A DNA stretch of 32,749 nucleotides, taken from contig CAJXRJ010000003.1 of the NCBI GenBank assembly GCA_913058555.1, positions 1 to 32,749 of the forward strand, read 5' to 3'. Source of the stretch: an uncultured bacterium. GTDB taxonomy: Bacteria; Planctomycetota; UBA1135; GCA-002686595. The notes under the pieces are model-generated. The model was not told the origin of the DNA and made no database searches. It worked only from the letters and a program-made list of their open reading frames with translations. Position numbers and translations under genes: made by a program. Numbering within the stretch: the first letter of the stretch is position 1; each line of letters begins with the position of its first letter. Of this stretch, positions 17,255 to 32,749 are shown piece by piece.

Positions 17255-18052
17255 CTAGCGCGACGCGGCCGTATGGGTTCGTTCTCTAAGTGCTGTGGTG
17301 GCGAGTTGGGCCAAGAAAGTGGCGTCGGCCAGGTATCTGCTGGCGAGCCGGCTTGGCTCTTGGGCCAGGCGGTGCATCCACTCGAGCCCTGAATCTTGCA
17401 TCCAGCTTGGGGCACGCCGTGAGTTACCTGCCAGGAAGTCCAGGGTGGCGCCGACGCCGACGCCGAGGCTTGCTCCGGTGCGTTCGAGGTGGCGCTCCAG
17501 GAAGAGCTCCTGCTTGGGGCAGCCAAGGCCTACCAGAAGCAGGCTAGCGCCGGTCGCGCGGATGTCATCGGCGACGGCCGCGGCCTGGGCCTCGCTATTC
17601 CAGTCGATAAACGGGGCTGCGGTGTCCGCAATTCTCAGGTTGGGGAGGCGTCCAATGGCAGCATTGGCGGCCTTCTGGGCGACGCCGTACCCGCCACCAA
17701 GGAAGTAGACACTGGCGCCTCGGGACGCCGCTTCTTCAAGGAGTGGCCAGGCAAGGTCCGAGCCTGCTACGCGCTCCGGTAGAGGCGCGCGGAGGATTCT
17801 TGAGAGCCAAACAAGGGGCTGCCCGTCAGCGGTGACGAGGTCGCAGGTTTGGAGCGCCCGGAGGAGCTCTGGGTTACTGGCCGCGAGTCGGAGGAAGTCA
17901 ACGTTGGCAGTGGCTACTCGCCGTGGCTGCGGGCCGGTCATCCAGTCACCGAGGAGCGCGACCGTGTCGGGGAAGTTGAGAGCCGAGACGTCGATACCCG
18001 CGAGCTCGGTCGTTCGGATGCTTGGGGCAGCGGTCATGTTTGTTTGAATCAT
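17255..18052 (-). CDS. WecG/TagA/CpsF-family glycosyltransferase
   Basis: A 265-aa GT26-family enzyme. This family adds a sugar (often N-acetylmannosaminyl or a uronic acid) to an undecaprenyl-linked sugar on the inner face of the membrane, usually the second step of a repeat unit. Family motifs: ATANVDF (about 47-53), VTADGQPLVWLSR with the conserved Asp (about 76), PERVAGSDL, GLGCPKQELF, and the ending 'GVGATLDFLAG..RRAPSWMQ..GLEW..RLA.EPSRL..RYL'. The start at 18052 has AAGGA nine bases upstream. The ORF track's 18106 start lies upstream of the predicted sigma-54 transcript start. The priming transferase at the far end of the locus would supply its acceptor. It has its own promoter, separate from the glycosyltransferase operon. 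Confidence 0.92.
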   Translation of the reverse strand: MIQTNMTAAPSIRTTELAGIDVSALNFPDTVALLGDWMTGPQPRRVATANVDFLRLAASNPELLRALQTCDLVTADGQPLVWLSRILRAPLPERVAGSDLAWPLLEEAASRGASVYFLGGGYGVAQKAANAAIGRLPNLRIADTAAPFIDWNSEAQAAAVADDIRATGASLLLVGLGCPKQELFLERHLERTGASLGVGVGATLDFLAGNSRRAPSWMQDSGLEWMHRLAQEPSRLASRYLADATFLAQLATTALRERTHTAASR

Positions 18053-18089: not shown

Positions 18090-18105
18090 TGCATAAAGCG
18101 TGCCA
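18090..18105 (-). promoter_or_regulatory. Sigma-54 promoter for the WecG/TagA gene
   Basis: Reading the minus strand, TGGCACG-CTTT-ATGCA fits the -24/-12 consensus TGGCACG-N4-TTGCW with one mismatch (A for T) and exact GG/GC spacing. It lies in the 93-bp gap before the gene. The predicted transcript starts near 18079, 27 bases before the ATG. Confidence 0.8.
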
Positions 18106-18145: not shown

Positions 18146-19420
18146 TCATTCCGTTGCGAGACGAACCTGCGAGGGAGAGTCCGAACCGGAACGCACTTCG
18201 TCGTAGTAGCGCAGGACACATGCGACCTTCTTGCTCCAGGTGTAGCGTTCTTCCACGTGTCGCCTTGCTGAGCGACCCATCAGTGACCGGCGTTCTTCGT
18301 CGTGTGCGAGCGAGTGCAGCGTCTGTGCCAATGCGCTGACCAACGCGGAGGGGGAGTCGGCATCGAGCGCGAAGCCGCTATCGGGCGTGACCGTCTCAGC
18401 CGGACCACCGTGGTTCGCGACGATGACGGGTTTCCCCGCAGCCATAGCTTCCATCACCGTAGATCCACCCGACTCCCGTACCGACGGGAAAACGTAGACA
18501 TCGCAGGCCTGCATCCTCGGGGGTACTTCCGTCACTGGCACAGCCCCGTGGAATACGACGCGCCCCTCGAGCTTGAGCGATTGCGTCAGTGCCTCAAGGC
18601 GCACACGGTCGGGTCCGTCGCCCACAATGTCCAGTGTGACATTCGCCGTGTTACGCACTTGGGCCAGTGCTCGCAGGGCCGTGTCGACGCCCTTGTAAGG
18701 CAATAATCGCCCGAGGTACAGGGCCCGCAGTTGCGGCCCCCCCCTAATGAAGTTCGGAGTGAACGCCGCTAAGTCGACGGCATTCTCAGAGAGAGTTATG
18801 GCGCAGGAACGATAGGTGCTCGGCAGGGCTTCGCGCGTGCCTTCCGTGGCTACCAAGATCTTGGAGGCCGACGCGAAAGTCCGCTGGAAGGGATCCAGGA
18901 GTCTCGCAAGCGAGCGGACACAGAGGAAGCCCTCACGCTCACGCCGGCGAACCTCGCCGAAGCCCGGCATGGTCGTCATCCCGCCATTGATTGGCCCGAG
19001 GACCATTGGGACGCCGAGGGTGCCGAGCCGAGTCGGGAACCTGGGCGAGATTGGAGAGACCCGGTGGATGACATCGATCATTCCCGCTGCAATGCGTCCA
19101 CGGGCGATCCTGCGGGCATCGCGATCAAAGGCGAGTTGGGCCAGAGCCTCCAATGCGAGTCGATTCACAGGTGAAGATCGGCGCCAGAGGCGCGTATTCC
19201 AGCGGTCGATGCGGGCCGCGAGGGTCTCAGTGTTAACGTAGTGGACCTTGCACCGCAGCACGCCCGCCCGCTCGATGGCCGCTTGATTGCGGACGTGGGT
19301 GATCAGCTCGATGTCTGCGACCTGGTCGAGGTAGCTGGCCCACCGCCAGCCGATGAGGGGCTCGCTACCCCACTCTGGATTGCAGTGATGGGCGACGAGA
19401 AGGACACGTGTGGCGCTCAT
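18146..19420 (-). CDS. GT4-family glycosyltransferase
   Basis: A 424-aa GT-B fold retaining transferase, last gene of the six-gene glycosyltransferase operon. The N-terminal acceptor half starts 'RVLLVAHHCNPEWGSEPLIGWRWASYL', with the Gly-rich loop for the sugar nucleotide. The C-terminal half carries 'ALYLGRLLPYKGVDTALRAL', 'LDIVGDGPDRVRLEAL', 'VVFHGAVPVTEVPPRMQACDVYVFPS' and the E-x7-E motif ESGGSTVMEAMAAG. It probably adds one sugar of the repeat unit in the cytoplasm; donor and acceptor cannot be read from sequence. Its ATG overlaps the preceding gene's stop as ATGA, implying translational coupling. Confidence 0.92.
   Translation of the reverse strand: MSATRVLLVAHHCNPEWGSEPLIGWRWASYLDQVADIELITHVRNQAAIERAGVLRCKVHYVNTETLAARIDRWNTRLWRRSSPVNRLALEALAQLAFDRDARRIARGRIAAGMIDVIHRVSPISPRFPTRLGTLGVPMVLGPINGGMTTMPGFGEVRRREREGFLCVRSLARLLDPFQRTFASASKILVATEGTREALPSTYRSCAITLSENAVDLAAFTPNFIRGGPQLRALYLGRLLPYKGVDTALRALAQVRNTANVTLDIVGDGPDRVRLEALTQSLKLEGRVVFHGAVPVTEVPPRMQACDVYVFPSVRESGGSTVMEAMAAGKPVIVANHGGPAETVTPDSGFALDADSPSALVSALAQTLHSLAHDEERRSLMGRSARRHVEERYTWSKKVACVLRYYDEVRSGSDSPSQVRLATE
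18180..18193. promoter_or_regulatory. Candidate activator site upstream of the WecG promoter
   Basis: TCCG-AAC-CGGAACG matches one full arm and half the other arm of the perfect palindrome at 31162-31180 (TCGTTCCG-ATC-CGGAACGA). It sits about 105 bases before the predicted transcript start, inside the end of the GT4 gene. The site is short and may be chance. Confidence 0.35.
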
Positions 19421-20337
19421 GCCCGCACCTTCCCGCGGGTGATTAGGGCCTTGAGTCGCTCAAGCTGCCATCGGCGTAGGTCGCGGCGGAAGTCGACATC
19501 GCCGTAGCGGGGTCTCCTGCGCGCTGCGCTTGTGAAGTATCCCCAGAGCATGCAGATCCCTCCCAGGACGCGCGGTCGCTCGTACATGCGGAAGATTGCG
19601 CTTGCGATCAGGTAGAGCGGGTGCGTACCCATGAACCACTGCCCGGCCCCGAGGCGCACACGGCCCCGGTAGATGTTGCGATCCGAGGACCCCATTAGCC
19701 GATGGTGGAGGATCCTAAGGGCATCCTCTGGGATGGACTTCGTCCGCCAGCCCATGCGACGGGCCTGATGGAAGTCGATTCCGTCCCACATGACTTCGGG
19801 GACGAGGCCGCCAATGTCCTCGAAGCAGGCGCGGCGCCAGCATTTCCACTGGCCCGCGACCATGTCGTCGATCATGAACTCCTCCACGAGGTGACCATCC
19901 TCCGGACGGAAGACCTTGCCACTAGCGGATCCGAGGAGCGGATCTTCCGCGAAGTGTTCGAGCAGTCGCTCTATGTACCGGGACCCGAATGTCAGGTCCG
20001 CGTCGACCTTGGCCACGAAGTCCCAGGGCCGATTCACGGAGTCGAGGCCGATGTTGAATGCATCTACCACACCTCCACCCAACTTCCGCGCACCGCGGTC
20101 GTTGCGCCGGAGGACCGAGATCCAGTCGTGGGCCTGCGCCAATGCGAATGCAACTTTGGCCGTGTCGTCCGTCGAGCCATCATCGACGATCACCCAGCGG
20201 CAGGGGAGCCTTGTCTGCGACAAGAGGCATTTCGCAAGACGGGGCAGGCGGTCCGCCTCATTGCGCGCCGGCGTGATGATGACTAGATCCGCGTGAGCAT
20301 GGCGGCCTGTGATTGACGAAGAGGAACGCTGAATCAT
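19417..20337 (-). CDS. GT2-family glycosyltransferase
   Basis: A 306-aa GT-A fold inverting transferase. Motifs: 'LVIITPARNEADRLPRLAKCLLSQT', the donor-binding VDDGSTDDT, the metal-binding D-x-D as VDADLTFG, and 'MVAGQWKCWRRACFEDIGGL' with 'WDGIDFHQARRMGW' in the acceptor/catalytic region. A hydrophobic stretch near residue 225-245 (PLYLIASAIF, VLGGICMLWGYF) may contact the membrane. The start is fixed by an ATGA overlap with the upstream gene's stop; the track's start eight codons earlier is less likely. It is the fifth gene of the operon and presumably adds a repeat-unit sugar. Confidence 0.9.
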   Translation of the reverse strand: MIQRSSSSITGRHAHADLVIITPARNEADRLPRLAKCLLSQTRLPCRWVIVDDGSTDDTAKVAFALAQAHDWISVLRRNDRGARKLGGGVVDAFNIGLDSVNRPWDFVAKVDADLTFGSRYIERLLEHFAEDPLLGSASGKVFRPEDGHLVEEFMIDDMVAGQWKCWRRACFEDIGGLVPEVMWDGIDFHQARRMGWRTKSIPEDALRILHHRLMGSSDRNIYRGRVRLGAGQWFMGTHPLYLIASAIFRMYERPRVLGGICMLWGYFTSAARRRPRYGDVDFRRDLRRWQLERLKALITRGKVRA

Positions 20338-21602
20338 TGGAAACCCTCGACGAAGGGGCAAGCAGCGGCGGCCAATGCAGGTGCCTGAAGTCGCTGACGG
20401 AAGCGCGTCACGAGCTGCTCGGCGTTCCTCTGGAGGTCGAATCGTTCCTCGACGGTGGTGCGCGCATTGCGGGCCATCTCGCTCGCTTGCTGCGGCTCAC
20501 CCAAGATGGTCAGTAGGGCGCTCGTGAGAGCCAGACGGTCGCGTGGTGGTACAGTCAGTCCGTTCACACAGTTCTCCACGAGCTCAGGGATTCCCGGTAG
20601 CGTAGTCGTTACCACCGGAACCCCGGAGGCCATCGCTTCCATGAGCGCCACGGGCAAGGCGTCTCGATCCCCGTTCTCCGTCGGGCGGCAGGGGAGGCAG
20701 AACGCTTGAGCCCGCCTCAGGAAGGTGCGGACCCTCGCGGGAGTGATCGAGCCCGTCATCACGACACGCTGGTCGACGTGGAGTGACTCTGCCAATCGTT
20801 CGAGATTGCGTCGTTCTGGCCCCTCGCCAGCGATGACAAGGCGGAGATCTGGATGTTCCTTCGAGACGGCCGCAAACGCATGGATGAGGTCGTCAAATCC
20901 TTTCTTGGCGACGAGGCGGCCCACGGCAAGCAGATAGGCACCCCAGGGATACTCACCTCGGCGCAGCGTGAACTGGTCGAGGTCGACGCCGCAGCGGTGG
21001 ACGCGGACCAAGTCGGCAGGCTGGCCAACTGTGCTGCGCAGCTCGCGTTTGTTCTCCTCGGTCACAGTCAAGAAAGACTGTGCGCGGAGCATCTTCTCGG
21101 CCAGGAGGGAGCCTTCCACGAACAGGTCGTTGGCGTGCGCGGTCACGCTGAACGGAATTCCCGCCGCGAGAGCGGCGTACATACCGACGGTTGCGGGTGC
21201 GTGGGCGAAGTGCACATGCAGGTGCTCGCTTCGGTGCCGGCGAAGATGCCTTGCGACCGCGAAGGCAGCGATCAGTTGCATCGGGACTTTCCAGCGTTGT
21301 AGCTCCTTTGGGAAGTTCCCGCGGAGCATGTCGCGGGCCGCGAGCGCGATTGCGGAACAAGCACGGACGGGGTCTTGTGCGGCGCCAAACGCTGCATCCA
21401 CGAGCATACGCCACGGCGCACTGTAGAGGAGTGATGTCCGCCTAGTTAGCGGCTTGAGTTCTGGAGCCGTTGGCATGGGGCTCGGTCGCCGGAGAGCCAG
21501 CGCCTGAACGTCGTGCCCGGCCTCTCCGTGGGCGGAGAGTTCGCGGTAGACGAACGTGGCCGAAACCGAAGGAATCTCAGGTGCAAGGTAGGTCATTCTC
21601 AT
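20334..21602 (-). CDS. GT4-family glycosyltransferase
   Basis: A 422-aa GT-B transferase. It starts 'MRMTYLAPEIPSVSATFVYREL', a common opening of exopolysaccharide GT4 enzymes. It has an acceptor half with 'HVHFAHAPATVGMYAALAAGIPFSVTAHANDLF', and a donor half with 'LLAVGRLVAKKGFDDLIHAFA', 'LVIAGEGPERRNLERL' and 'RDALPVALMEAMASGVPVVTT'. The last is the E-x7-E motif with the first acid as Asp, a known variant. The track's extra 113 N-terminal residues are rejected: they are out-of-frame translation of the upstream GT2 gene, and the ATG at 21602 forms the operon's usual ATGA overlap. Sugar specificity is unknown. Confidence 0.92.
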   Translation of the reverse strand: MRMTYLAPEIPSVSATFVYRELSAHGEAGHDVQALALRRPSPMPTAPELKPLTRRTSLLYSAPWRMLVDAAFGAAQDPVRACSAIALAARDMLRGNFPKELQRWKVPMQLIAAFAVARHLRRHRSEHLHVHFAHAPATVGMYAALAAGIPFSVTAHANDLFVEGSLLAEKMLRAQSFLTVTEENKRELRSTVGQPADLVRVHRCGVDLDQFTLRRGEYPWGAYLLAVGRLVAKKGFDDLIHAFAAVSKEHPDLRLVIAGEGPERRNLERLAESLHVDQRVVMTGSITPARVRTFLRRAQAFCLPCRPTENGDRDALPVALMEAMASGVPVVTTTLPGIPELVENCVNGLTVPPRDRLALTSALLTILGEPQQASEMARNARTTVEERFDLQRNAEQLVTRFRQRLQAPALAAAACPFVEGFQ

Positions 21603-22567
21603 CGGATTACTCCGCGGCGGATGGGCGTGATCAGGACGGTGAGGGCCGCGAGCGCGACCGGGATCTTGACTGCGTAGACGTGGACGGCGTGGATGGCCGC
21701 GTGGCGTAGTGGGGTCCCCCGAGCGAGCGCGCGGAGGGCGTGGCGAAGGGCGAGGCCAGCGACCACGACGGTGATGGCTCCGAGTGCAGCCGGACCCGCG
21801 TAGGCCGCGCTCCCCAAGCCAACAGCCAGCGCGGTGAACGCGAAGACCGGGCTCTTGAGGTTTCTCCGAACCGTAGGGTCGCCAGAGTGCTTGAGGAACA
21901 CGGAGGCCCGTGACCGACCGACGGCCCAGGCGCGGCGCCACCAGCCCATTGCAGATTGGAGCCCCAGGTCGTGACTCGCCATGGTGGCGGTGAGCCGCGC
22001 GACCTCAAATCCTCGGTCACGGGCACGGAGGTAGAGATCTGGGTCTTCTCCGACGGGCAGAGTCGGGTCGAAGCCCCCCAGGGCTCGGAGGCTTGAGGTA
22101 CGCCAGAAAGCTGCGCCCCCGAGGATCGCATGTCTCGATGGGCCCTGGGCCCAATCCATACCGAACGCCGTATTCCAAGGGGTGGACCCGAGATGCCTTT
22201 CGTGGATCTGGCCGCCGACTGCGGCGAGGCCTCCCTCGACCAGGGCCTCGAGAGCGAGGGGGAGCCACTGGGGGTGAACGAACATGTCCCCGTCTAGGAG
22301 CTGGACGAACTCCCCTCGCGCCTCTGCAATGCCGAGGTTCCGTGCTCGAGCAGCATTCAGAGGGGCCCCGGTCAGCGAATGGACGCCGACGCCCGGCCGA
22401 GCGGAAGCGATGGCGATGCTGGAATCCTGCGAGCTGCAGTCCACGAAGAGGACCTCGGTCGAGTAGCCGCGAGAGGCCATGGCTTGGGCGCTCGCTACGG
22501 CGTGGTCCAACGCAGCTCCTAGGTGCGCTGCTTCATTGCGACCGATGAGGACGAGCGACAGGATCAT
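21599..22567 (-). CDS. GT2-family glycosyltransferase with C-terminal membrane helices
   Basis: A 322-aa protein. The GT-A domain has 'MILSLVLIGRNEAAHLGAALDHA', the donor motif VDCSSQDSS, the D-x-D as LLDGDMFVHPQW, and 'GGFDPTLPVGEDPDLYLRARDRGF' with the catalytic acidic ED. After about residue 225 come two or three hydrophobic segments (SPVFAFTALAVGLGSAAYAG, AALGAITVVVAGLAL, IPVALAALTVLI), so it should sit on the inner membrane. It starts at the ATG inside an ATGA overlap with the upstream gene. It is the third gene of the operon. Confidence 0.9.
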   Translation of the reverse strand: MILSLVLIGRNEAAHLGAALDHAVASAQAMASRGYSTEVLFVDCSSQDSSIAIASARPGVGVHSLTGAPLNAARARNLGIAEARGEFVQLLDGDMFVHPQWLPLALEALVEGGLAAVGGQIHERHLGSTPWNTAFGMDWAQGPSRHAILGGAAFWRTSSLRALGGFDPTLPVGEDPDLYLRARDRGFEVARLTATMASHDLGLQSAMGWWRRAWAVGRSRASVFLKHSGDPTVRRNLKSPVFAFTALAVGLGSAAYAGPAALGAITVVVAGLALRHALRALARGTPLRHAAIHAVHVYAVKIPVALAALTVLITPIRRGVIR

Positions 22568-23469
22568 GCCGATACCCCCTTCTCTTCCAGAGGAGTCGCC
22601 GTGACGGGGGGCTCCGTCACTGAATCGACGACCGGCCGTGCCCACATCCACAGTCGACGCGCAAGGTGGAGCCCTTCGACCGTGGCGAGAGCGATGACGC
22701 CATGGTGCTTCCTGAAGTAGCGTCGGCGGCTGGCACGGAAGTGCTGAGCCGTCACCTTTGACGAGGTTCTAGTGGGCGCGCCTGAGGACGCTCCACCGAT
22801 GTGCTTGCAGACGGCGCTAGGCAGGTGAGCGACTCGCCAACCGAGGGCCTGCGCGCGGAGGCACCAGTCGGTTTCTTCGTAGTAGAGGAAGAAGCTCTCG
22901 TCGAAGGGACCGACCACCTCAAGTGCCCTCCGCCGAATCAGCATGCAGGCGCCCGAGATCCAGATCGAGTCACGCGCGTCGTCTTTGCACTGGTCGTCGC
23001 GCTGGAGCCCCAGCCGGCGCGCGAGGATCTCACAGGTCCTGGCAAACTCACCTCCGGTGGAGGGAAGCGATTGTAAGCCAGCTTCGGCACCTCCGTCCCC
23101 GTTGACGATGGCCGGCCCGACGGCCGCGACGTCCGGGTTCTGCTCGAGGTACGCGACCAACTTGACAAGCTCACTCGGCTCCAGCGTCGCATCCGGATTG
23201 AGGAGCAGGACCCACGGAGCCGCACCCAGTGCGATACCTGCATTGCACCCCGACCCGAAGCCGCGGTTGGTCGGCATGACGGACACCTCTACGACATCGT
23301 GACAGCGTTTGATGTACTCAACCGTGTTGTCGTGGCTAGCCGAGTCCACGACGAATGAGCGAACAGACGGTGTCCGGCGCAGGCCCTCCAGGCAAGCGTC
23401 AACGACGAAGCGGCTGTTGTAGGTCACGACGACGGCGTCGATGATCGGGATCGGCTGTGGTGGCTTCAT
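22564..23469 (-). CDS. GT2-family glycosyltransferase (rhamnosyltransferase-like)
   Basis: A 301-aa GT-A enzyme. It has 'IDAVVVTYNSRFVVDACLEGL', 'FVVDSASHDNT' and 'NRGFGSGCNAGIALGAAPWVLLLNPDATL', where NPDA takes the place of the D-x-D as in rhamnosyltransferase-like GT2 proteins. It ends with 'WISGACMLIRRRALEVVGPFDESFFLYYEETDWCLRAQALGW', the family's catalytic block. The Met chosen (MKPPQPIPII) overlaps the flippase stop as ATGA; the 156 extra residues in the track are antisense-like read-through of the flippase gene in another frame. The sugar is not predictable beyond resemblance. Confidence 0.9.
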   Translation of the reverse strand: MKPPQPIPIIDAVVVTYNSRFVVDACLEGLRRTPSVRSFVVDSASHDNTVEYIKRCHDVVEVSVMPTNRGFGSGCNAGIALGAAPWVLLLNPDATLEPSELVKLVAYLEQNPDVAAVGPAIVNGDGGAEAGLQSLPSTGGEFARTCEILARRLGLQRDDQCKDDARDSIWISGACMLIRRRALEVVGPFDESFFLYYEETDWCLRAQALGWRVAHLPSAVCKHIGGASSGAPTRTSSKVTAQHFRASRRRYFRKHHGVIALATVEGLHLARRLWMWARPVVDSVTEPPVTATPLEEKGVSA

Positions 23470-25073
23470 ACTGGCATCACGGGTGACAGGTTCTGTGGGC
23501 GACGGTGATGTGCACTGCGGTGTTGACGTAGGGCGTGGACGATGTAGGGGAGGGCCCCGAGAGTCACGATGGACCCAGCCACCAGGACTCTGATGCCCGC
23601 ATCCGTACGAGTCGCGGCGGGGCCCCACGCGCTGAGAGCGGGCATGCTGCAGGCGGCTGCCAGGACGGGTCCGAGAGCTGGGAAACTGAGGTCTCCCATG
23701 CGGGCCGCCCAAGGAATCTCGCGGGCGAGTGGAGCCCACGCCCAAAGGCCAAGGCAGCAAACGGCCTGGGTGCTTGCGACGCTGATGGCGACGCCAGCGA
23801 GCCCGAACGTGGCCCCAGAGGGAGGGACAGCGATCAACGCGAGCGCCAGCCAGGCGATTGCGTATGCAACTTCGGCGCGGGGCCGAGCGAGGCCGCGGAG
23901 GGACGCGGTGAGTGCGCCTGTGGAGAGGTGTAGCCATGCGGCTGGTGCCAGGATCATCAGGACTTGGGCGATCCGTGGATCGGGACTTCCAAGCCAGGCC
24001 TGGACCAGGTCGTCCGCAGACACAATGAACATTGCGGTTGGGACGGCACCAGCCAAAGCAACAAGGCGCGTGGCCGTTCGCAGAGCGTTGATAAGCTCGC
24101 GACGCCCAGCGACGCCCCTTGAGCCGAGGGAGGCCGCAGCCGGAGCGAGGGGCGCGAGCCCGTGTGCCGGGAGAGCTGCCGCGAACTCGACGAGTTTCCT
24201 TGCCACCTCGTAGGCGCCGGCGGTGACGAGTCCACCACTGTGGACGAGGGCGAATCGGGGCACCGCGGCGATGCCGAGGTGCACCGTGCCCAACAGTTGG
24301 ATCGCGCCGCCAAGCCGGAGGACGGGCCCGAGCTCTGATCTACTCAGGAGACCAGGAGACGCGCACAGTGGGTGCTGACCACGCAGTGCACCATGGCGGT
24401 GGAATGGAATCGGGAGGAGGATTCGGACGGCGTAGGCGACTGCGAGGCCCACAAGCCCAGCGCCGCCGAGGAGGAGCAGCACAAGCAGGCCGGCCTCCAC
24501 CAGTTGGGCGGTGGCGTCCGTGATTCGGGCCCGCGCATGATCTTGCCGTGCCTCGAGCGCCGATTGCCAGCCTCCGAGGACGAGGCCGGTGAGCGTGGCG
24601 ATCCCAGTGATCTGAACGCAGAGCGTTGCGGCGGCTAGGTCGGCAGCAGAGATCCCGATAAGCTGCGCTCCCCGCTCCGCATGGAAGAGAAGGAGGCAGC
24701 CCAGCGGGATGGCGCAGAGCAATGCAACGGTGGCCGTGGTCCTCAGAGTCGCTTCGGCTCGGTCGGCGCGGTGGGCGGAGAGATGTGCAGCGGCGTGGGC
24801 CACCGAAGCGGACAGGAGTCCCATCCGGTGGATCCCGAGGAGCCCAAGCGCCACAAAGAGGATGGACCAGAACCCGTACGCGTCCAGTCCCGCCTTGGAG
24901 ACGATCAGCGGAGTCAGTAGGAAACGGGAGGCGAGGTATGCGGCTTGCGCAGCGATGCCGATACTCGACCCGCGTCGCACGGCGGACCACAATGTCCGTC
25001 CGTGTAACCCCTGATCGTCGCTCGAAGCCGTCTCACTCAGGGAGGAGGTGGAGGTCTGTTGGTTAGTTCGCAT
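23466..25073 (-). CDS. Wzx-type polysaccharide flippase
   Basis: A 535-aa integral membrane protein of the MOP/MATE-like polysaccharide flippase group, with about 12-14 predicted helices. Typical signs are the first helix region 'AAQAAYLASRFLLTPLIVSKAGLDAYGFWSILF', with the small-residue and 'YGxW' pattern of Wzx N termini. Later come repeated helices and 'PRFALVHSGGLVTAGAYEVARKLVEFAAALPAHGLAPLAPAAASL' in the middle. It should move the undecaprenyl-linked repeat unit to the outer face for the Wzy protein encoded divergently. It is the first gene of the operon, about 23 bases from the predicted sigma-54 start. It slightly exceeds the usual 420-500 aa because of a hydrophilic N-terminal tail of about 30 residues. 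Confidence 0.88.
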   Translation of the reverse strand: MRTNQQTSTSSLSETASSDDQGLHGRTLWSAVRRGSSIGIAAQAAYLASRFLLTPLIVSKAGLDAYGFWSILFVALGLLGIHRMGLLSASVAHAAAHLSAHRADRAEATLRTTATVALLCAIPLGCLLLFHAERGAQLIGISAADLAAATLCVQITGIATLTGLVLGGWQSALEARQDHARARITDATAQLVEAGLLVLLLLGGAGLVGLAVAYAVRILLPIPFHRHGALRGQHPLCASPGLLSRSELGPVLRLGGAIQLLGTVHLGIAAVPRFALVHSGGLVTAGAYEVARKLVEFAAALPAHGLAPLAPAAASLGSRGVAGRRELINALRTATRLVALAGAVPTAMFIVSADDLVQAWLGSPDPRIAQVLMILAPAAWLHLSTGALTASLRGLARPRAEVAYAIAWLALALIAVPPSGATFGLAGVAISVASTQAVCCLGLWAWAPLAREIPWAARMGDLSFPALGPVLAAACSMPALSAWGPAATRTDAGIRVLVAGSIVTLGALPYIVHALRQHRSAHHRRPQNLSPVMPV

Positions 25074-25082: not shown

Positions 25083-25106
25083 CAGCGCGTGCTACGCCAC
25101 TGCAAC

Positions 25107-25122
25107 CGCACACACCGTGCCA
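25107..25122 (-). promoter_or_regulatory. Sigma-54 promoter for the flippase/glycosyltransferase operon
   Basis: On the minus strand, TGGCACG-GTGT-GTGCG has a perfect -24 element and the essential GC at the right spacing. The -12 element is GTGCG instead of TTGCA. The predicted start near 25096 gives a leader of about 23 bases before the flippase ATG. Confidence 0.68.
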
Positions 25123-25147
25123 GTACCGGAATGGAATGCTTCGACGT

Positions 25148-25163
25148 TGGTCCGTCGTTTGCA
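25148..25163 (+). promoter_or_regulatory. Sigma-54 promoter for the export/polymerase operon
   Basis: TGGTCCG-TCGT-TTGCA has the invariant GG and GC at exact spacing, a perfect -12 element and two mismatches in the -24 element (T for C, C for A). The predicted start near 25174 lies 31 bases before the ATG at 25205 and rules out the track's start at 25136. It is divergent from the flippase promoter, only 25 bases away. Confidence 0.7.
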
Positions 25164-25204
25164 TCAGGTGGGGTGGAGGTCGCCGCTGTCCTTCACCATT
25201 GACC

Positions 25205-26248
25205 ATGCATATCACCCAACTACGTCTGCTTGCCACCCTCTTTGCCGCCCTGGCTGGATGCGCCGGGGTCGCCAGTCCCGAAGGCGTTCCACTTAGGGAT
25301 GCCATTCTGGAACTGCCCCGCGTCGCGCCAAGCGTGCCGCCGCTGACCGATTCGTCACGGATCGACTATGAGGCACTCCGCACCTCTCGGCCGGCTCCCT
25401 CGACGACGGAGTACCAACTTGGTCCGGGGGATGAACTTGCGGTGTTTGTCGCTGGGCACCCCGACCTTAGTGGCCGCTTTGTCCTGGGGCCCGATGGGCG
25501 CCTCGGCTTTCCCTTGATCGGGAGCGTCTCTCTTACGGAATCAACCCGTGACGAGGCTGCCCGGTCGCTTGCGGGGAAGCTGGCGCCGTACCTTGCGACA
25601 CCCCCGTCCGTCGTGGTGGATGTGACGCGCTACGTAAACAACAAGGTCTATGTGCTTGGCCGCGTCGAGCAGCCTGGGATCGTCGAACTGACGGGCAGTG
25701 GGACGCTGCTCCAGGCAATTGCTGCTGCAGGAGGGCTGCCAGTACGCGAGTTCCGCGCGCTGCTCTCTCGGGCAGCCATTGTCCGGGGGAGAGACGAGAT
25801 ACTCTGGATCGACCTCATCGACCTCCTTCAGAACGGCAATGTCGCGCTCAACGTCCCGCTGCGGAACGGCGATGTTGTCTACATCCCGGACTCGGAGGAT
25901 GCGTCGGTATTCGTGATGGGTGAGGTCGCCACGCCCGGGGCAGTGCAGATCAAAGCGCGCCTCCGCCTGACGCAGGCCCTAGCACGTGCGGGCGGGCCGA
26001 CGGAGGATGCAGATCTGAGTCGGATCTACCTTCTGCGGCCGAATCCCGGTGGAGAGACGATCAAGCCGATGGTCATGGACCTATCTGCGTTACTCGAGAC
26101 TGGTGACTTCGGTGAGGACGTGGAGTTGCTACGCGGGGACATCCTGTACATCGCACGCTCAGGCATGGGCGACGTTGGCTACACGCTCTCAAAGCTCTCT
26201 CTCGGTTTTCCGCTTGTCTTCGCCGGCGCCACCCTGGGAGGAAATTGA
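25205..26248 (+). CDS. Wza-like polysaccharide export lipoprotein
   Basis: A 347-aa outer-membrane polysaccharide export protein. The chosen start MHITQLRLL leads to a signal peptide with lipobox LAGC (Cys19). The Poly_export domain follows ('YQLGPGDELAVFVAGHPDLSGRFVLGPDGRLGFPLIGSVSL', about 75-160). Then come two SLBB domains ('KVYVLGRVEQPGIVELTGSGTLLQAIAAAGG' and 'SVFVMGEVATPGAVQIKARLRLTQALARAGG'). The C terminus is hydrophobic (LGFPLVFAGATLGG) and may be the membrane-spanning helix of the Wza octamer. It should form the exit channel, partnered by the next gene. The stop overlaps that gene's ATG by one base (TGATG). The gene leads the plus-strand operon. Confidence 0.92.
   Translation: MHITQLRLLATLFAALAGCAGVASPEGVPLRDAILELPRVAPSVPPLTDSSRIDYEALRTSRPAPSTTEYQLGPGDELAVFVAGHPDLSGRFVLGPDGRLGFPLIGSVSLTESTRDEAARSLAGKLAPYLATPPSVVVDVTRYVNNKVYVLGRVEQPGIVELTGSGTLLQAIAAAGGLPVREFRALLSRAAIVRGRDEILWIDLIDLLQNGNVALNVPLRNGDVVYIPDSEDASVFVMGEVATPGAVQIKARLRLTQALARAGGPTEDADLSRIYLLRPNPGGETIKPMVMDLSALLETGDFGEDVELLRGDILYIARSGMGDVGYTLSKLSLGFPLVFAGATLGGN
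26237..26241 (+). promoter_or_regulatory. Strong Shine-Dalgarno that fixes the next start
   Basis: GGAGG lies six bases before the ATG at 26248, inside the last codons of the wza-like gene. It is one of the few canonical ribosome sites in the window and supports 26248 over the TTG one codon earlier. Confidence 0.8.
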
Positions 26249-28227
26249 TGAAGGAGCTCTTCGAACTCGGCGATGAGGCACTGGTGTCGCCCGGCGCGGC
26301 GTTGCCCGGAGGGGCTATGGCGGCGAAGATGGAGTCACCTTCGGTCGGGGGCCCTGCGGACCTCGCGAGGCTTGCAGTCTCGGCTGTCTGGCGCCGCTGG
26401 TACGTGGTCCTCGGCGTAGCGCTTCCGTTGGGGGCACTATCAGTCTTTGCCGCGGCGAAGAAGTTCCAGCCCGCGTTTGCCGCCGAAGCGATGATCGAGG
26501 TCGCGCCGACGGTTCCGAGCGTGGCATTCACCGATGAACAGTGGCGCGCGCAATCGATCCACGGGTTCTATGACAATTACATGCGCACTCTGATGCGCTT
26601 GGCGAAGGTCCGTCCCGTGCTGGAGGGCGCAAGGCAGCGCCTCAGCGACGACGGGATCAACTGGCGCCCACCGGCGGTGACAGAGGCGGAGTCCACCGAC
26701 CACTTAGGGGCCCGAATACAGGTGAATGCGATCCGAGAGACACACCTCTTCTCGGTGCGCTTTGAGGACGCCGATCCAGGGCTCGTGGCGCCGGTGGCCA
26801 ATGCGGTCACCACGTCTCTTCTGACTCACCTAGAGGAGACCGCTGCTGAGCAGCGGAGGAAGCGCCGCGAGATCATCGAGGATGAGCGAGAACGCCTTCG
26901 GTTGCAGCTCAGGGATACTTATGCGGCCCTCGAGCCCATGAGCGCCCGATTAGGGAGTGCGTTGATCGATGACCGCCACAATGTCTTCTTCGAACGCCTC
27001 AATACGCTCACCGAGGGCATGACCAAGGTATTCGTCGACCGCGTTCGAAGGGAGGGCGAACTGGAGGGGGTGCGGAAGCGAGCCTCGCTGCTTCTTCAGG
27101 AGGTTCCTTTTGGGGAACTTGAGGCCCTCGTTGATGAGGACCGAGCGGTGGCCGACGCACGCGTGACCCAAGGGCGCCTCGCCCGGGAGATCGAGAGTTC
27201 TACGGGGGCGCTTTCCGATGAACACCCGGAGAGGGCGCAGGCCCTCAAGCGGCTGGCCTCTGCGAGAGCTCAGGGGGACCAAATCGAAGAGGGGGCCCGG
27301 GTCCGGATTCGCGCGAGGCTGCAGTCCCAGCGCGAGGAGCAGGCGGCTCGCTTGTTGACCGCTGCCGAAGGAAGCGTCGAAGGGGCGCGGTGGAGTGAGG
27401 AACGGATGCAGAACGTACTCGGGGATGCCGAGGAACAGCTCGTGGAGCATGGTCGAGCCCAGATCGTGGCGCGGGAGCTTCGCACGGAGGCTGATCGGCT
27501 GCTGGCCACCATGCGGATGTTGGACCAGAGGGTGGACGAGCTCCAGATGGAAGCAAACGCCGCATCCCGCGTTGTCCTCCGAGCTCCTGCGGTAGAGCCG
27601 CGCCGTCCGACGGGGGACAAGCGGCCGGTCGTTGCGCTTGTTGGTCTGTTGTTCAGTGGCGCTCTCGGACTAGCCTTGGGGATCGCATTGGAATGGCTCC
27701 GGCAGCCTGTTCGTCGCGACGCGGACCTCAAGGAGCTTGGACCCGTGACGCGGATGGACGAACGCAGTCGGGCACGGCTTGCGTTTCAGCTGAGCTCCGC
27801 CACGCGGCCCACGCTACTGATGGGGATGGCCGGCGTCTGCGCGGAGGAACTCCGCGCCGTTGGGGCGGACCTGGTCGGACGCGTGGCGACGATCGGCGAG
27901 GTGGTCTGGTTTGACTTGCTCCCCGGCTGCGCGCCTGGAAGAGAGGGTCCTGTGGGGGTGCAAGCGATCCGCCTTGACTCGACAGACCAGGTAGTCCTGC
28001 CAGCTCCGGAAGTGACGCAACGGATCGCAGCGGCCGCCCAGCGCCAGAGGGTTCTCGGTACGGTGCTAGCAGATCCTCATCCGGATCCCGCTGCGAGCGT
28101 TCGCGATCTGGGTTGCGACGTCGTCCTCGTCGTTCGCCGGCACCGAACCCGGCTGGCCTGGGCTAAGGATGCGGCCGCGTCCGGACTTGTGGTTCGCGGG
28201 GTTCTCGTACTCGAACGGAGGGGATGA
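26248..28227 (+). CDS. Wzz/Wzc-like chain-length protein with degenerate kinase domain
   Basis: A 659-aa inner-membrane co-polymerase. Order: a cytosolic N tail, TM1 (about 52-68, 'WYVVLGVALPLGALSVFAAA'), the Wzz region, a long charged coiled coil (about 195-450, 'AEQRRKRREIIEDERERLRLQLRDTYAAL'), a proline-rich segment, TM2 (about 459-482), and a cytosolic C domain. That C domain sits where bacterial tyrosine kinases have their P-loop domain. The segment aligned with Walker A reads 'LLMGMAGVCAEELRAVG' instead of 'GEGKST', the Walker A' 'DxDxR' is 'WFDLLPG', and there is no C-terminal Tyr cluster. The final strand and helix 'CDVVLVVRRHRTRLAWAKDAAASGLVVRGVLVL' still fit the family. So it probably cannot bind ATP or phosphorylate. 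It should set chain length and dock the exporter. No phosphatase gene is seen. Confidence 0.87.
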   Translation: MKELFELGDEALVSPGAALPGGAMAAKMESPSVGGPADLARLAVSAVWRRWYVVLGVALPLGALSVFAAAKKFQPAFAAEAMIEVAPTVPSVAFTDEQWRAQSIHGFYDNYMRTLMRLAKVRPVLEGARQRLSDDGINWRPPAVTEAESTDHLGARIQVNAIRETHLFSVRFEDADPGLVAPVANAVTTSLLTHLEETAAEQRRKRREIIEDERERLRLQLRDTYAALEPMSARLGSALIDDRHNVFFERLNTLTEGMTKVFVDRVRREGELEGVRKRASLLLQEVPFGELEALVDEDRAVADARVTQGRLAREIESSTGALSDEHPERAQALKRLASARAQGDQIEEGARVRIRARLQSQREEQAARLLTAAEGSVEGARWSEERMQNVLGDAEEQLVEHGRAQIVARELRTEADRLLATMRMLDQRVDELQMEANAASRVVLRAPAVEPRRPTGDKRPVVALVGLLFSGALGLALGIALEWLRQPVRRDADLKELGPVTRMDERSRARLAFQLSSATRPTLLMGMAGVCAEELRAVGADLVGRVATIGEVVWFDLLPGCAPGREGPVGVQAIRLDSTDQVVLPAPEVTQRIAAAAQRQRVLGTVLADPHPDPAASVRDLGCDVVLVVRRHRTRLAWAKDAAASGLVVRGVLVLERRG

Positions 28228-29532
28228 TTGCAGGCCGCGGTTCTCCTTCCGGTCCTTCTCTTCGTCGCCGTGTGGTTATTCCGCGGCGCTCGGAGTGCTA
28301 TCGTCGGCGTCCTGCTGCCCAGTCTGGTGCTGTTGCCTGCGTATTACGTTTGGAAACTGCCGGGCATTCCGGTGGTGACCTTTCATAACTACCTGGTGGC
28401 CCTTGGGCCGGTGGCGCTCATCAGTGCGCGGATTACCACAGGAGTGCGCCCCGCGCTCACCGACCTTCTGGTGCTCACGGGAGCCATGTGTGCCATCTCC
28501 AGTGAGTGGGGCAATGCGAATTTGCACGAGGCCAAGAACCTGGCGGCGATGATGTTCATGCTGGGCCTGGCCCCGTACTGGATCGGGCGCCTTGTGGCGT
28601 CGTCCGACGGGCTATTGGTCGCATGCATCGGCGTCGTCGTAATGCTCGGCGCTGGCGTGGGCTTCGCATCAGTCTTCGAGGCGCGAATGGGATCGAACCC
28701 CTTTGATTTCTGGCGGGGACGTTGGCCGGGATCCGTGCCTTGGGATGGGGCGCTCTATCGCGCGGGGATTAGACGGTGTGCGGGGCCGTTCGCTCACCCC
28801 ATCTGTGCCGGCTTCTTCTTCTCCATGCTCATTCCGCTCTGGGCGTGGTTGGCCGACCGGAAGCTCCCGTTTCGGTCGCTACAGCGTGTTCTTCTGGGCT
28901 CAGGGCTCTTGTTGGGACTGCTCACTTCGGTGTCGCGAGGGCCCATGCTGGGGGCAATGGTCGGTGTGTTGATCATGCGCTTGGGCTGGTCGCGATGGCG
29001 GCTTCCGATCGCCGCGGTCGCGCTGGCCACCGGTTTGCTCGGGAGCGTGCTGGCTGCGGACAAGGTGGAGGGTTACCTCAGCGTCACCCGGGGGGACGCG
29101 AAGACCGAGTCCCAAGAGACGGCGGCCTACCGCACGGAGATGCTCGTCAACTACCTGGAGGTGGTACGGGAGGAGCCATGGCAAGGATTCGGTCGCTATC
29201 AGGTCCCGGTGGTCAAGGGGCAGAAGTCGATCGATAACCAGTATCTCTTCCTCACCCTCCAGTACGGACTTCCGCATGCCGTGCTCTTCCTTCTGGCGCT
29301 CTTGACGCCGGCGTGCCTTCTTGCCTGGAGGCTCGCATGGGCACCCGTCACCGATCCTCACGGGCGACTCGGGTGGGCCATCGTGGGCTTGCTTTTTGGA
29401 GCGATAGGGACACTGACCACGGTTTTCGCGGGGACGCAAACCGCACAGATTCTGCTTCTGATGCAAGGGATGGCCGTGACACTTACGGGGCGAATCGGTC
29501 GTTCGGCGAGCCTCGGAACGCGGCTACAATGA
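28228..29532 (+). CDS. Wzy/O-antigen-ligase-type polysaccharide polymerase
   Basis: A 434-aa membrane protein with about 11 hydrophobic segments. The key Wzy_C-type block is 'LLTSVSRGPMLGAMVGVLIMRLG'. It is followed by a large outside loop with 'TAAYRTEMLVNYLEVVREEPWQGFGRYQVP' and 'KSIDNQYLFLTLQYGLPHAVLFLL', matching the pattern 'R..M....L.......P..G.G......DN.YL......G'. It should polymerise flipped repeat units on the periplasmic face. It starts with TTG. A GGAGGGG ribosome site lies four bases upstream across the previous stop, and no ATG in frame fits better. The gene follows the chain-length gene directly. Its stop overlaps an in-frame ATG (29529) of the regulator reading frame. Confidence 0.87.
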   Translation: MQAAVLLPVLLFVAVWLFRGARSAIVGVLLPSLVLLPAYYVWKLPGIPVVTFHNYLVALGPVALISARITTGVRPALTDLLVLTGAMCAISSEWGNANLHEAKNLAAMMFMLGLAPYWIGRLVASSDGLLVACIGVVVMLGAGVGFASVFEARMGSNPFDFWRGRWPGSVPWDGALYRAGIRRCAGPFAHPICAGFFFSMLIPLWAWLADRKLPFRSLQRVLLGSGLLLGLLTSVSRGPMLGAMVGVLIMRLGWSRWRLPIAAVALATGLLGSVLAADKVEGYLSVTRGDAKTESQETAAYRTEMLVNYLEVVREEPWQGFGRYQVPVVKGQKSIDNQYLFLTLQYGLPHAVLFLLALLTPACLLAWRLAWAPVTDPHGRLGWAIVGLLFGAIGTLTTVFAGTQTAQILLLMQGMAVTLTGRIGRSASLGTRLQ

Positions 29533-29669: not shown

Positions 29670-31133
29670 ATGAATCCCCGACTGCTGCTTGTGGACGATG
29701 ATGCTCACTTGCTTGAGTTGATTCAGCTTCAGCTTCGCGGCGAGAGCCTCGACGTTCGGACCGCCGATTCCGGCGCAGGTGCTATGGAGACTCTCAAGGG
29801 GGCTAGGTTCGACGCCGTAGTGCTCGACCTTGGGCTGCCGGATGCGTCCGGATTGGACATCCTCAAGCGTATCTGCACGACCTACGGAGATACGCCAGTG
29901 GTCATCCTCACCGCGAGGGAGGACGTGGAGAGTGCTGTTGCATGCCTTCGCGCCGGTGCGACCGACTTCTTGAGCAAGCCTTTCGATCGAGCTCGTTTGA
30001 TTGCTTCTGTGCGAGGTGCGTTGACTCAGGGGAAGTTGAAGCGGGAAGTCTCCACGCTGCGCAAGGAGCTACAGCGAGAGGAGGGCTTTGGGTCCTTCCT
30101 CGGGAATTCGCCGGCGCTGGCGAGGTCGTTGGAACTCCTGGGGCGCGCGGCAACGAGCGAGGTAACCGTCCTGATCGAGGGCGAGAGCGGCACTGGCAAG
30201 GAAGTCGCCGCGCGGGCCGTGCATGCTGAGGGCAATCGTGCCGCGGGGCCGTTCCTTGCGATCAACTGCGGAGCGTTGCCGGAAACACTCGTTGAGAGTG
30301 AGTTGTTCGGGCACGAAAAGGGAGCCTTCACCGGGGCGGATTCCCTGCGCCGTGGCTGCTTCGAAGAGGCGAGCGGCGGAACGCTATTCCTCGATGAAGT
30401 CGGGGAGCTGAAACCTGATATCCAGGTGCGACTCCTGCGCGTCCTTCAGGAGCGAACGGTCCAGCGTCTTGGTTCGAGCAAGTCGATCCCGATCGATGTG
30501 CGAATCGTGACCGCGACGAATCGAGACCTCCGCGCGGAGGTCGATGCGGGCCGATTCCGGGAGGACTTGTTTTATCGACTGGCTGTATTCCCTGTGATTT
30601 TACCGCCACTGCGCGATCGCAACGGGGACGTGGACCTCCTGGCGCAAGTGTTCCTTGATCAGTCCGCACGGGAGCTGGGGCGGCCAGCGCGTGGGCTCAG
30701 TCGGGAGGCGCTAGAGGTGCTCGGACGCCACACGTGGCCGGGTAACGTTCGTGAACTGATGAACGTGCTGCAGCGCGCGGTGATCCTGGAAGACAGCGAG
30801 GTCGTGCGTACGGACGCCTTGCCAGCGGCGTTAGTGGAGAGCGCGTTCCCCGAAGGCGTATCGGACGTAGGTGAACGGTCCGAGCCGGCCGCTGCGCACG
30901 CAAGGGCGACTCCCTCGCAGTCAAAGGTCGGAGGGGGACTCGCCTTCGGCGGAGAGGTGCTCCGTTTTGTGGAGTACGAGCGAGCGATCGTGTTGCACGC
31001 ACTCGAATCGACAGGGTGGAGTATCAAGAACACACTTGCGTCCCTAGGGATCGGCCGGGCGACCCTCTACCGAAAGATCGAGCGCTACGGGCTGAGGGAC
31101 GAGCGGGGTGAAGTCCCGCCGTCGGACGATTGA
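29670..31133 (+). CDS. NtrC-family sigma-54-dependent response regulator
   Basis: A 487-aa transcription activator. Receiver domain (about 1-118): acidic triad D9-D11, phospho-acceptor D53 in VVLDLGLPD, 'ILTARED' and the Lys in FLSKPFD. AAA+ domain (about 140-365): Walker A GESGTGKE (171-178), the sigma-54 contact loop GAFTGA (218-223), Walker B GGTLFLDEVGEL, and arginine-finger region FREDLFYRL. C-terminal Fis-type helix-turn-helix (about 452-475, 'NTLASLGIGRATLYRKIERYGL'). All catalytic and contact residues are present, so it should be active with RpoN. The ATG at 29670 begins exactly at the receiver domain, with AGGTGA ten bases upstream. An in-frame ATG at 29529, overlapping the wzy stop as ATGA, would add 47 residues. 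No partner histidine kinase is in the window. Four sigma-54 promoters nearby are its likely targets, including that of its own operon. Confidence 0.93.
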   Translation: MNPRLLLVDDDAHLLELIQLQLRGESLDVRTADSGAGAMETLKGARFDAVVLDLGLPDASGLDILKRICTTYGDTPVVILTAREDVESAVACLRAGATDFLSKPFDRARLIASVRGALTQGKLKREVSTLRKELQREEGFGSFLGNSPALARSLELLGRAATSEVTVLIEGESGTGKEVAARAVHAEGNRAAGPFLAINCGALPETLVESELFGHEKGAFTGADSLRRGCFEEASGGTLFLDEVGELKPDIQVRLLRVLQERTVQRLGSSKSIPIDVRIVTATNRDLRAEVDAGRFREDLFYRLAVFPVILPPLRDRNGDVDLLAQVFLDQSARELGRPARGLSREALEVLGRHTWPGNVRELMNVLQRAVILEDSEVVRTDALPAALVESAFPEGVSDVGERSEPAAAHARATPSQSKVGGGLAFGGEVLRFVEYERAIVLHALESTGWSIKNTLASLGIGRATLYRKIERYGLRDERGEVPPSDD

Positions 31134-31161: not shown

Positions 31162-31180
31162 TCGTTCCGATCCGGAACGA
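31162..31180. promoter_or_regulatory. Perfect palindrome, likely enhancer site of the sigma-54 activator
   Basis: TCGTTCCG-ATC-CGGAACGA has perfect 8-bp arms and a 3-bp spacer. It lies 29 bases after the regulator's stop and about 120 bases before the transcript start predicted from the exact sigma-54 promoter, the usual distance for an NtrC-type upstream activating site. It could instead form a hairpin at the regulator's 3' end, but no T run follows. Partial copies occur near two other sigma-54 promoters. Confidence 0.58.
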
Positions 31181-31263: not shown

Positions 31264-31279
31264 TGGCACGACACTTGCT
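31264..31279 (+). promoter_or_regulatory. Exact-consensus sigma-54 promoter
   Basis: TGGCACG-ACAC-TTGCT is identical to the consensus TGGCACG-N4-TTGCW. The predicted start near 31290 is about 19 bases before the ATG of the priming transferase, and AGAGG nine bases before that ATG lies inside the resulting leader. Confidence 0.92.
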
Positions 31280-31308: not shown

Positions 31309-32052
31309 ATGAACATCTCCATCGTCAGCCCCCTACGTTCGAACGCGGCGGGAGGCGGCCCGAGGCACGCTTTCGGCGCAAAGAGCGCTCCGCAGTACAT
31401 CCGCCTTTCGGTCAACGTCCAGAGAACCGGGTGGTGGCTTCGTCATCGAATGTACCCCCACGCGAAGCGCGCCATGGACGTTTTGGTGGCAGGCACGGCG
31501 TTGCTCGTGCTGAGCCCCGCCCTCGCGCTCCTCGCGGTCGCAATCCGCTGCCAAGACGGTGGCCCTGCGCTCTATGTGCAGGAGCGAGTGGGACGTGGCG
31601 GGCGCAGATTCCGGTTCCCCAAGCTCCGGAGCATGAGCATGGCGTCGGACGACCTTCGCGAATCGGTGATCGCACAAGCAGGGCAGCAGACCGGCGTGCG
31701 CTTCAAGGATCGCCGGGACCCACGGATTACGCCTTTGGGTCGGATCCTGCGCCGAACGAGCCTGGATGAGCTCCCTCAGCTCTGGAGTGTTCTCGTCGGG
31801 GACATGTCGCTGGTCGGGCCCCGCCCGCCGCTTCCATCGGAGGTCGAGGCTTACGACCGCCGCACGTGGAGGCGGTTGGATGTCCCACCCGGGCTCACAT
31901 GCACCTGGCAGGTCAGCGGCAGGTCCGACATTGACTTTCAGCAACAGGTGGACCTCGACCTAGACTACGTGCAATGCCGAGGCCTCTGGGTCGATCTGGC
32001 GCTCTTGGCGAGGACGCCGGTGGCTGTTCTCACCGGCCGTGGGGCCTACTGA
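31309..32052 (+). CDS. Priming glycosyl-1-phosphate transferase (monotopic PGT)
   Basis: A 247-aa member of the bacterial sugar transferase family (PF02397). It moves a sugar-1-phosphate from a nucleotide sugar to undecaprenyl phosphate, the first step of repeat-unit assembly. Motifs: 'KRAMDVLVAGTALLVLSPALALLAVAI' (membrane-dipping helix, about 54-80), 'YVQERVGRGGRRFRFPKLRSM' (K105 in KLRSM), the catalytic Asp-Glu in LDELPQLW (D153/E154), and 'GDMSLVGPRPP'. It is the short form, without the N-terminal multi-helix half of WbaP-type enzymes, but with an extra hydrophilic tail of about 45 residues. The track's start at 31216 is rejected because the sigma-54 promoter lies inside that extension. 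A second gene begins one base after the stop. Confidence 0.93.
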   Translation: MNISIVSPLRSNAAGGGPRHAFGAKSAPQYIRLSVNVQRTGWWLRHRMYPHAKRAMDVLVAGTALLVLSPALALLAVAIRCQDGGPALYVQERVGRGGRRFRFPKLRSMSMASDDLRESVIAQAGQQTGVRFKDRRDPRITPLGRILRRTSLDELPQLWSVLVGDMSLVGPRPPLPSEVEAYDRRTWRRLDVPPGLTCTWQVSGRSDIDFQQQVDLDLDYVQCRGLWVDLALLARTPVAVLTGRGAY

Positions 32053-32053
32053 T

Positions 32054-32749
32054 ATGAGCAGCACTCAGCACGGCCCCTACAGCGTCTCGTTTTTGGGGGT
32101 CGAAGCCCTGGCGCCGAGGAACCTCAGCCCCGCGGACCTCCGGGCATGGCTTATGGCGCCTATCGCGGGCGAACCGCTCTACCGTCGACTCCTCGAACCC
32201 TTGGTCGGCGTGACGGTGGCCCGAATCCGAACAGGGACAGGCTCCGTTGGTCGTGCTCTCGCCAGGTTGGTCGAAGAGCGACCGGTCTTTGGACTCGGGG
32301 ACTCGTTCAAAGCGGATGTTGGGCCGGGGATGGGCGAGCTCCTCTTGCCGGGTAGCGGGCTGATCGGACTGGATGTCTCGGCGTTGATCGCCCGGTCCGA
32401 GGCCGAGGAGCGGCCGTACATTGTCATGGGAAAGCCGACGCATCGCTCGTCCCGTGGAAACATGGTTTTCGTCCGGCCTGCGAGTTGCAGGCGAGGCGCA
32501 TCCTCTGCGGCGCCCGCGCAGCCAGGGGTGCCGTTCGAGTTCCGACCAACTGGCTCCGTCAGGGCGTTGCTCGAGTCGTCCAAGGCCGCGCTGCGACAGC
32601 AGGTCCCTGGACTGGAGCCGGCCGGTGTTTGGCGGCGAGGGATGCTGCTGGGTTCACGCGCCACCGTCGCTGCGACTATGGATGGGGCGGTGCGGGCGGC
32701 AGTCGGGGCTGAGAGTCGGGTGGAGACAAACGTGCTTCTGGGGGAAGGG
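32054..32749 (+). CDS. Unidentified gene after the priming transferase (cut by window end)
   Basis: An open frame of 232 codons runs to the last base without a stop, which is why the ORF track omits it. It begins ATGAGCAGCACTCAG one base after the transferase stop, so it is almost certainly co-transcribed and coupled. The protein starts 'MSSTQHGPYSVSFLGVEAL' with no signal peptide or membrane helix in the visible part. Segments such as 'LRAWLMAPIAGEPLYRRLLEPLVGVTVARI' and 'RPYIVMGKPTHRSSRGNMVFVRPAS' suggest a soluble cytoplasmic protein. I do not recognise a family. Its position under the exact sigma-54 promoter ties it to polysaccharide synthesis. Confidence 0.78.
   Translation, partial: MSSTQHGPYSVSFLGVEALAPRNLSPADLRAWLMAPIAGEPLYRRLLEPLVGVTVARIRTGTGSVGRALARLVEERPVFGLGDSFKADVGPGMGELLLPGSGLIGLDVSALIARSEAEERPYIVMGKPTHRSSRGNMVFVRPASCRRGASSAAPAQPGVPFEFRPTGSVRALLESSKAALRQQVPGLEPAGVWRRGMLLGSRATVAATMDGAVRAAVGAESRVETNVLLGEG

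Follow-up and report, generated by a model that had tools for sequence, protein, structure and literature searches.

A polysaccharide cluster with probable sigma-54 promoters and a self-encoded likely activator in an uncultured bacterial lineage

The exopolysaccharide gene cluster in the window (the whole 32,749-nucleotide stretch of DNA analysed here) is quite likely controlled by sigma-54, with a built-in activator acting at four promoters and feeding back positively on its own synthesis. It provides a concrete case, from an uncultured lineage, of a polysaccharide cluster with sigma-54-type promoters and a self-encoded likely activator. The control looks cluster-wide rather than a switch between two arms, since the two strongest sites precede the genes of the priming transferase and of a WecG-type transferase, which are the most strongly marked control points.

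Cluster organisation and predicted promoters

The cluster consists of two arms read in opposite directions. The minus arm begins with a Wzx-type flippase gene (23466..25073), which has a weak MatE match and an ortholog matching MatE/Polysacc_synt, and continues with five glycosyltransferase genes (GT2, GT2, GT4, GT2, GT4; 18146..23472, starts approximate) and a WecG/TagA/CpsF-type glycosyltransferase gene (17255..18052). The plus arm opens with the gene for a Wza-like SLBB polysaccharide export lipoprotein (25205..26248), followed by those for a chain-length determinant-like protein (26245..28227; EpsF/XrtA chain-length type, below cut-offs), a Wzy_C polymerase/ligase (28228..29532) and an NtrC-type enhancer-binding protein (29670..31133) with a receiver domain, an AAA+ domain carrying GAFTGA and a Fis-type HTH, which is the likely cognate activator. 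After the activator gene comes a bacterial sugar transferase gene (31309..32052, +), encoding a polyprenyl phosphate sugar-phosphate transferase. An open frame at 32039-32749 (+), cut by the contig end, is probably a further cluster gene; a homolog with 33% identity lies at the same place in the related genome G493, and the C-terminus of that homolog weakly resembles a left-handed beta-helix domain. No histidine kinase gene was found within the window, nor was any exosortase, PEP-CTERM gene or PrsK recognised there, and an Rfam scan of the window returned no RNA family.

Putative promoters were recognised by a GG and a GC pair separated by 10 bases within TGGCAC-N5-TTGC, and all window positions were scored with an experimentally derived PSSM, built from 29 intergenic sigma-54 sites of Salmonella (PMC3844500 Table 3). 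All four sites that precede cluster start codons keep the GG and GC pairs, and two of them outrank every other position of the window. Rank 1 is the perfect-consensus site TGGCACGACACTTGCT at 31264-31279 (+), upstream of the sugar-phosphate transferase gene, whose start codon is at 31309, and rank 2 is TGGCACGCTTTATGCA at 18105..18090 (-), upstream of the WecG/TagA-type gene, whose start codon is at 18052. Both are stronger than the divergent pair that the first-pass annotation had described, and both had been missed by it. The distances from site to start codon are 31 nt (transferase), 39 nt (WecG), 35 nt (flippase) and 43 nt (export), with a small circularity because the start codons were picked from protein N termini. 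The perfect 11-base core has 8 matches in the 7.48 Mb assembly, 1 of them in this cluster. Third in the window ranks another strong sigma-54-like site, TGGCACAGACGCTGCA at 18330..18315 (-), which falls within the glycosyltransferase gene that precedes the WecG-type gene, some 265 nt ahead of the start codon of the latter; it could be an additional promoter or a chance match.

In the proposed mechanism, the receiver-AAA+-Fis activator, whose gene lies last in the plus arm, would, when phosphorylated (phosphorylation being its presumed control), drive the sigma-54 polymerase at four promoters. The left divergent promoter would serve the flippase and glycosyltransferases, and the right one the export, chain-length and polymerase genes and the activator itself; of the other two, one would serve the WecG-type transferase gene and one that of the priming sugar-phosphate transferase. 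As the activator gene belongs to the plus arm, firing of that arm would presumably raise the activator level, which constitutes the positive feedback. We infer from the sequence that the sites act as promoters and that this activator, not another of the approximately 16 in the genome, serves them. It is also plausible that the divergent arrangement balances synthesis and export.

The divergent site pair and its conservation

The first-pass annotation had placed two sigma-54-like sites on opposite strands, 25 bases apart and with predicted starts about 78 bases apart, and the coordinates and spacing were confirmed. The -24/-12 site TGGCACGGTGTGTGCG of the flippase/glycosyltransferase arm lies at 25122..25107 (-), with a predicted start at 25096 and the start codon at 25073, and the site TGGTCCGTCGTTTGCA of the export/polymerase/activator arm at 25148-25163 (+), with a predicted start at 25174 and the start codon at 25205; the gap between the sites is 25 bp and the starts are 78 bp apart. 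Each site matches 10/12 positions of TGGCACGNNNNTTGCW and has GG and GC intact in the GG-N10-GC arrangement. The two are imperfect in different halves, as had also been noticed earlier: the weak half of the minus site is the -12 element, which reads GTGC and then G, and that of the plus site is the -24 element, TGGTCC, in which the A at -23, a sigma-54 contact (PMC3844500), is missing.

On sequence, the minus site is the only one of the divergent pair that stands out. It holds rank 4 in the window with 11.9 bits, a score expected 1.9 times by chance, and the plus site holds rank 15 with 7.2 bits, expected 14.6 times. All 29 reference sites score at least 12.7 bits in leave-one-out scoring. The plus site, ranking 15th and falling below every one of these references, is therefore not distinguishable from background by its sequence alone. 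When position is considered, a score this good would arise by chance in the roughly 50 nt ahead of the correct start codon with a probability of 0.0015 (minus site) or 0.012 (plus site).

The conservation of the pair could be followed in G493, a genome of the same order and another family, which is the only other carrier of the cluster among 154 genomes of the order. With the export protein as query, no other orthologous cluster was found in 81 genomes from the same family or in 392 from the phylum, nor in the classes of the next-best genomes, and a repeat draw from the phylum gave the same next-best genomes. The conservation sample is one syntenic relative, and the assembly is fragmented, with a completeness of 80%. 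In G493 the genes from WecG through the sugar transferase to the next gene follow one another as in the window, with protein identities of 29-59%; the differences are an additional glycosyltransferase and the fusion of a receiver domain to the sugar transferase. The latter ortholog (L222:17441-18511, +) consists of an N-terminal PF00072 and PF02397, and the window copy is without PF00072. This fusion hints that the priming enzyme of G493 may be under direct phosphorylation control.

The flippase/export intergenic region of G493 carries CGGCACGCGCGGTGCT on the minus and TGGTCCGTCCGTTGCT on the plus strand, 48 bp apart and in the same order and orientation. Their positional probabilities are 0.0044 (minus) and 0.010 (plus), jointly about 4e-5 in a test that the first finding had fixed beforehand. 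Taken together, the two sites share 21/22 motif positions between the window and G493, as against 2/8 spacer positions (Fisher P 0.0003, or 0.002 when the anchoring GG/GC pairs are left out). Likewise, the similarity of the two intergenic regions goes from P 0.001 to 0.107 when both sites are masked, the rest aligning at chance level. The check suggested in the first-pass annotation, conservation of both GG/GC pairs in relatives that keep the gene order, was thus run and passes in the sole syntenic relative found, and its claim of divergent sigma-54-type promoters for the flippase/glycosyltransferase and export/polymerase arms is upheld to that extent. The divergent promoter pair is probably real, because the only distant relative found to share this gene order keeps both sites. 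The base differences between the two sites may set relative strength, as first suggested; the conservation of the unusual bases TGGTCC and GTGC in G493 fits deliberately weak sites. The other two promoters fare differently in G493, where WecG lies inside the operon and has no promoter site of its own, and where the transferase gene is preceded by a poor site of 3.9 bits.

The plus site is the member of the pair most open to doubt. It is possible, albeit unlikely, that the true sigma-54 promoters are the flippase, WecG and transferase sites and that the plus site is none, so that some other promoter would drive the export operon or the TGGTCCGTC block would bind another protein. The low rank of the site and its missing -23 A agree with such a reading, as does its counterpart in G493, whose predicted start lies only about 3 nt before the export start codon and would leave a 3-nt leader on an almost leaderless mRNA. 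However, the TGGTCCGTC block is conserved together with the GG-N10-GC spacing, a perfect TTGC and the W that follows it, while the spacer bases differ; moreover, sigma-70-like promoters were sought in the flippase/export region and none was found, including near the plus site.

The activator and its candidate binding sites

The cluster activator contains PF00158 (Sigma54_activat), PF00072 (receiver) and PF02954 (Fis-type HTH), and GAFTGA is present in both the window protein and its ortholog in G493. The two proteins are 51% identical and their recognition helices are near-identical (IGRATxYRKIERxGL). The source genome encodes one RpoN, with the RpoN-box ARRTVAKYR, and approximately 16 full-length sigma-54 activator domains. 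Against the PrsR model TIGR02915 the activator scores 384.1 bits, below the cut-off of 502.6. Scanning named genomes with the activator as query gave generic NtrC-type proteins, none of them in a matching cluster.

A perfect palindrome, TCGTTCCG-ATC-CGGAACGA, is found at 31162-31180, about -119 relative to the transferase promoter, and is a candidate activator site. It is the only perfect match to CGTTCCGN3CGGAACG in the genome, which has 7 positions with at most one mismatch. One of the 7 is a one-mismatch copy at 25852-25868, inside the export gene and about 690 bp from the divergent promoters; a remote enhancer is possible there. Two imperfect copies with 3 mismatches each (18147..18193), near positions -76 and -106 relative to the WecG promoter, are suggestive only. 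No exact dyad was common to the upstream regions of all promoters.

A different motif, CGGAATGGAAT at 25127..25137 (+), lies between the divergent promoters and corresponds to CGGAACGGAAC in G493; one-mismatch versions occur at the other two promoter regions. In a star test of CGGAAYGGAAY, random regions as controls gave P 0.003, and keeping the G493 region gave 0.02-0.06 for words of 10 to 12 bases. As an activator contact between the divergent sites it is suggestive only. Activators usually bind about 70-150 bp upstream (PMC3844500), and the centre of this motif, at about -36/-42, is too close for that geometry; with a gap of only 25 bp, a normal enhancer would hardly fit between the -24 boxes. 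The earlier proposal that one shared set of activator sites could fire both arms thus has only suggestive motifs in its favour.

The promoters could also be sigma-54-dependent and served by an activator encoded elsewhere, in which case there would be no local feedback; this is judged improbable. The approximately 16 full-length activators of the genome offer ample candidates, no kinase gene lies beside the cluster activator, and the candidate binding motif is suggestive at most. Against a distant activator, the cluster activator gene occupies the same place in G493 with its recognition helix conserved, and a palindrome unique in the genome lies between this gene and the transferase promoter.

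A rather more doubtful variant of local activation is that a single site between the -24 boxes, which are 25-48 bp apart, fires both promoters, with the arms used in turn and not together. Placed there, the activator would have to make contact with the closed complexes without the long DNA loop that is usual, and mutual exclusion of the two polymerases might make the arms alternate.

That all sites are chance matches in GC-rich DNA and a housekeeping sigma factor transcribes the cluster is very improbable, because, although genome-wide consensus counting gave no excess (a reversed control pattern was commoner than the pattern) and a site of plus quality is expected about 15 times per window, the top-ranked sites directly precede cluster start codons and both divergent sites recur in G493. 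The 23 related export-gene loci examined from the phylum, and 4 further export loci in the source genome, yielded no site better than 10/12.

Relation to known sigma-54 systems

The kind of control proposed for the cluster is already known from orp, zra, hyc/hyp and the Desulfovibrio T3SS, and for polysaccharide from Nla24/EpsI and PrsR, and the cluster is another example of it. What is unusual is the short spacing of the divergent -24 boxes and that the strongest sites precede the genes of the priming and the WecG-type transferase. For example, the orp1/orp2 operons of Desulfovibrio vulgaris are divergent sigma-54 operons with the cognate activator DVU2106 (PMC3897727). As in the present cluster, two divergent operons of one system each have a sigma-54 promoter, and the orp pair is co-activated by its cognate enhancer-binding protein. 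However, the orp activator sites are at -131 and -88 with IHF sites between, compared with 25 bp between the sites here, and the orp function is related to the division site rather than to polysaccharide. Similarly, the T3SS of D. vulgaris has divergent sigma-54 operons, one of which encodes the activator DVUA0100 (PMC4641369). The activator gene thus lies in one arm in both systems; the cargo differs, and DVUA0100 is a single-component protein with GVATGV, whereas the activator here has a receiver domain and GAFTGA. Back-to-back sigma-54 promoter pairs are also present at enterobacterial zraP/zraSR and hycA/hypA (PMC3844500 Table 3), but by the table coordinates these are about 100-150 bp apart, which leaves room for activator sites, against 25 bp in the window and 48 bp in G493.

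Among polysaccharide systems, the eps locus of Myxococcus xanthus encodes EpsI/Nla24, an NtrC-type protein with receiver, AAA+ and HTH domains that is required for exopolysaccharide and is a c-di-GMP receptor (PMC4877007). Both loci encode an NtrC-type activator among exopolysaccharide genes, and several proteins of the cluster match M. xanthus Eps families, below cut-off. The PrsK-PrsR-PrsT/PEP-CTERM system likewise combines a sigma-54 motif with an upstream activator motif and has its response regulator near polysaccharide genes (PMC1569441). In the Prs system, however, the motif precedes genes of PEP-CTERM proteins, and the activator here falls below the PrsR cut-off. The cluster lends support to Francke et al. 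(2011), in whose view sigma-54 controls the exterior of the cell (PMC3162934).

As a separate observation from the same genome, a sigma-54-like site of 16.0 bits lies at L126:378-393 (+), near the 5' end of a YtfE-type iron-sulfur repair gene, and its -12 variant, GGTGC, resembles that of the flippase site.
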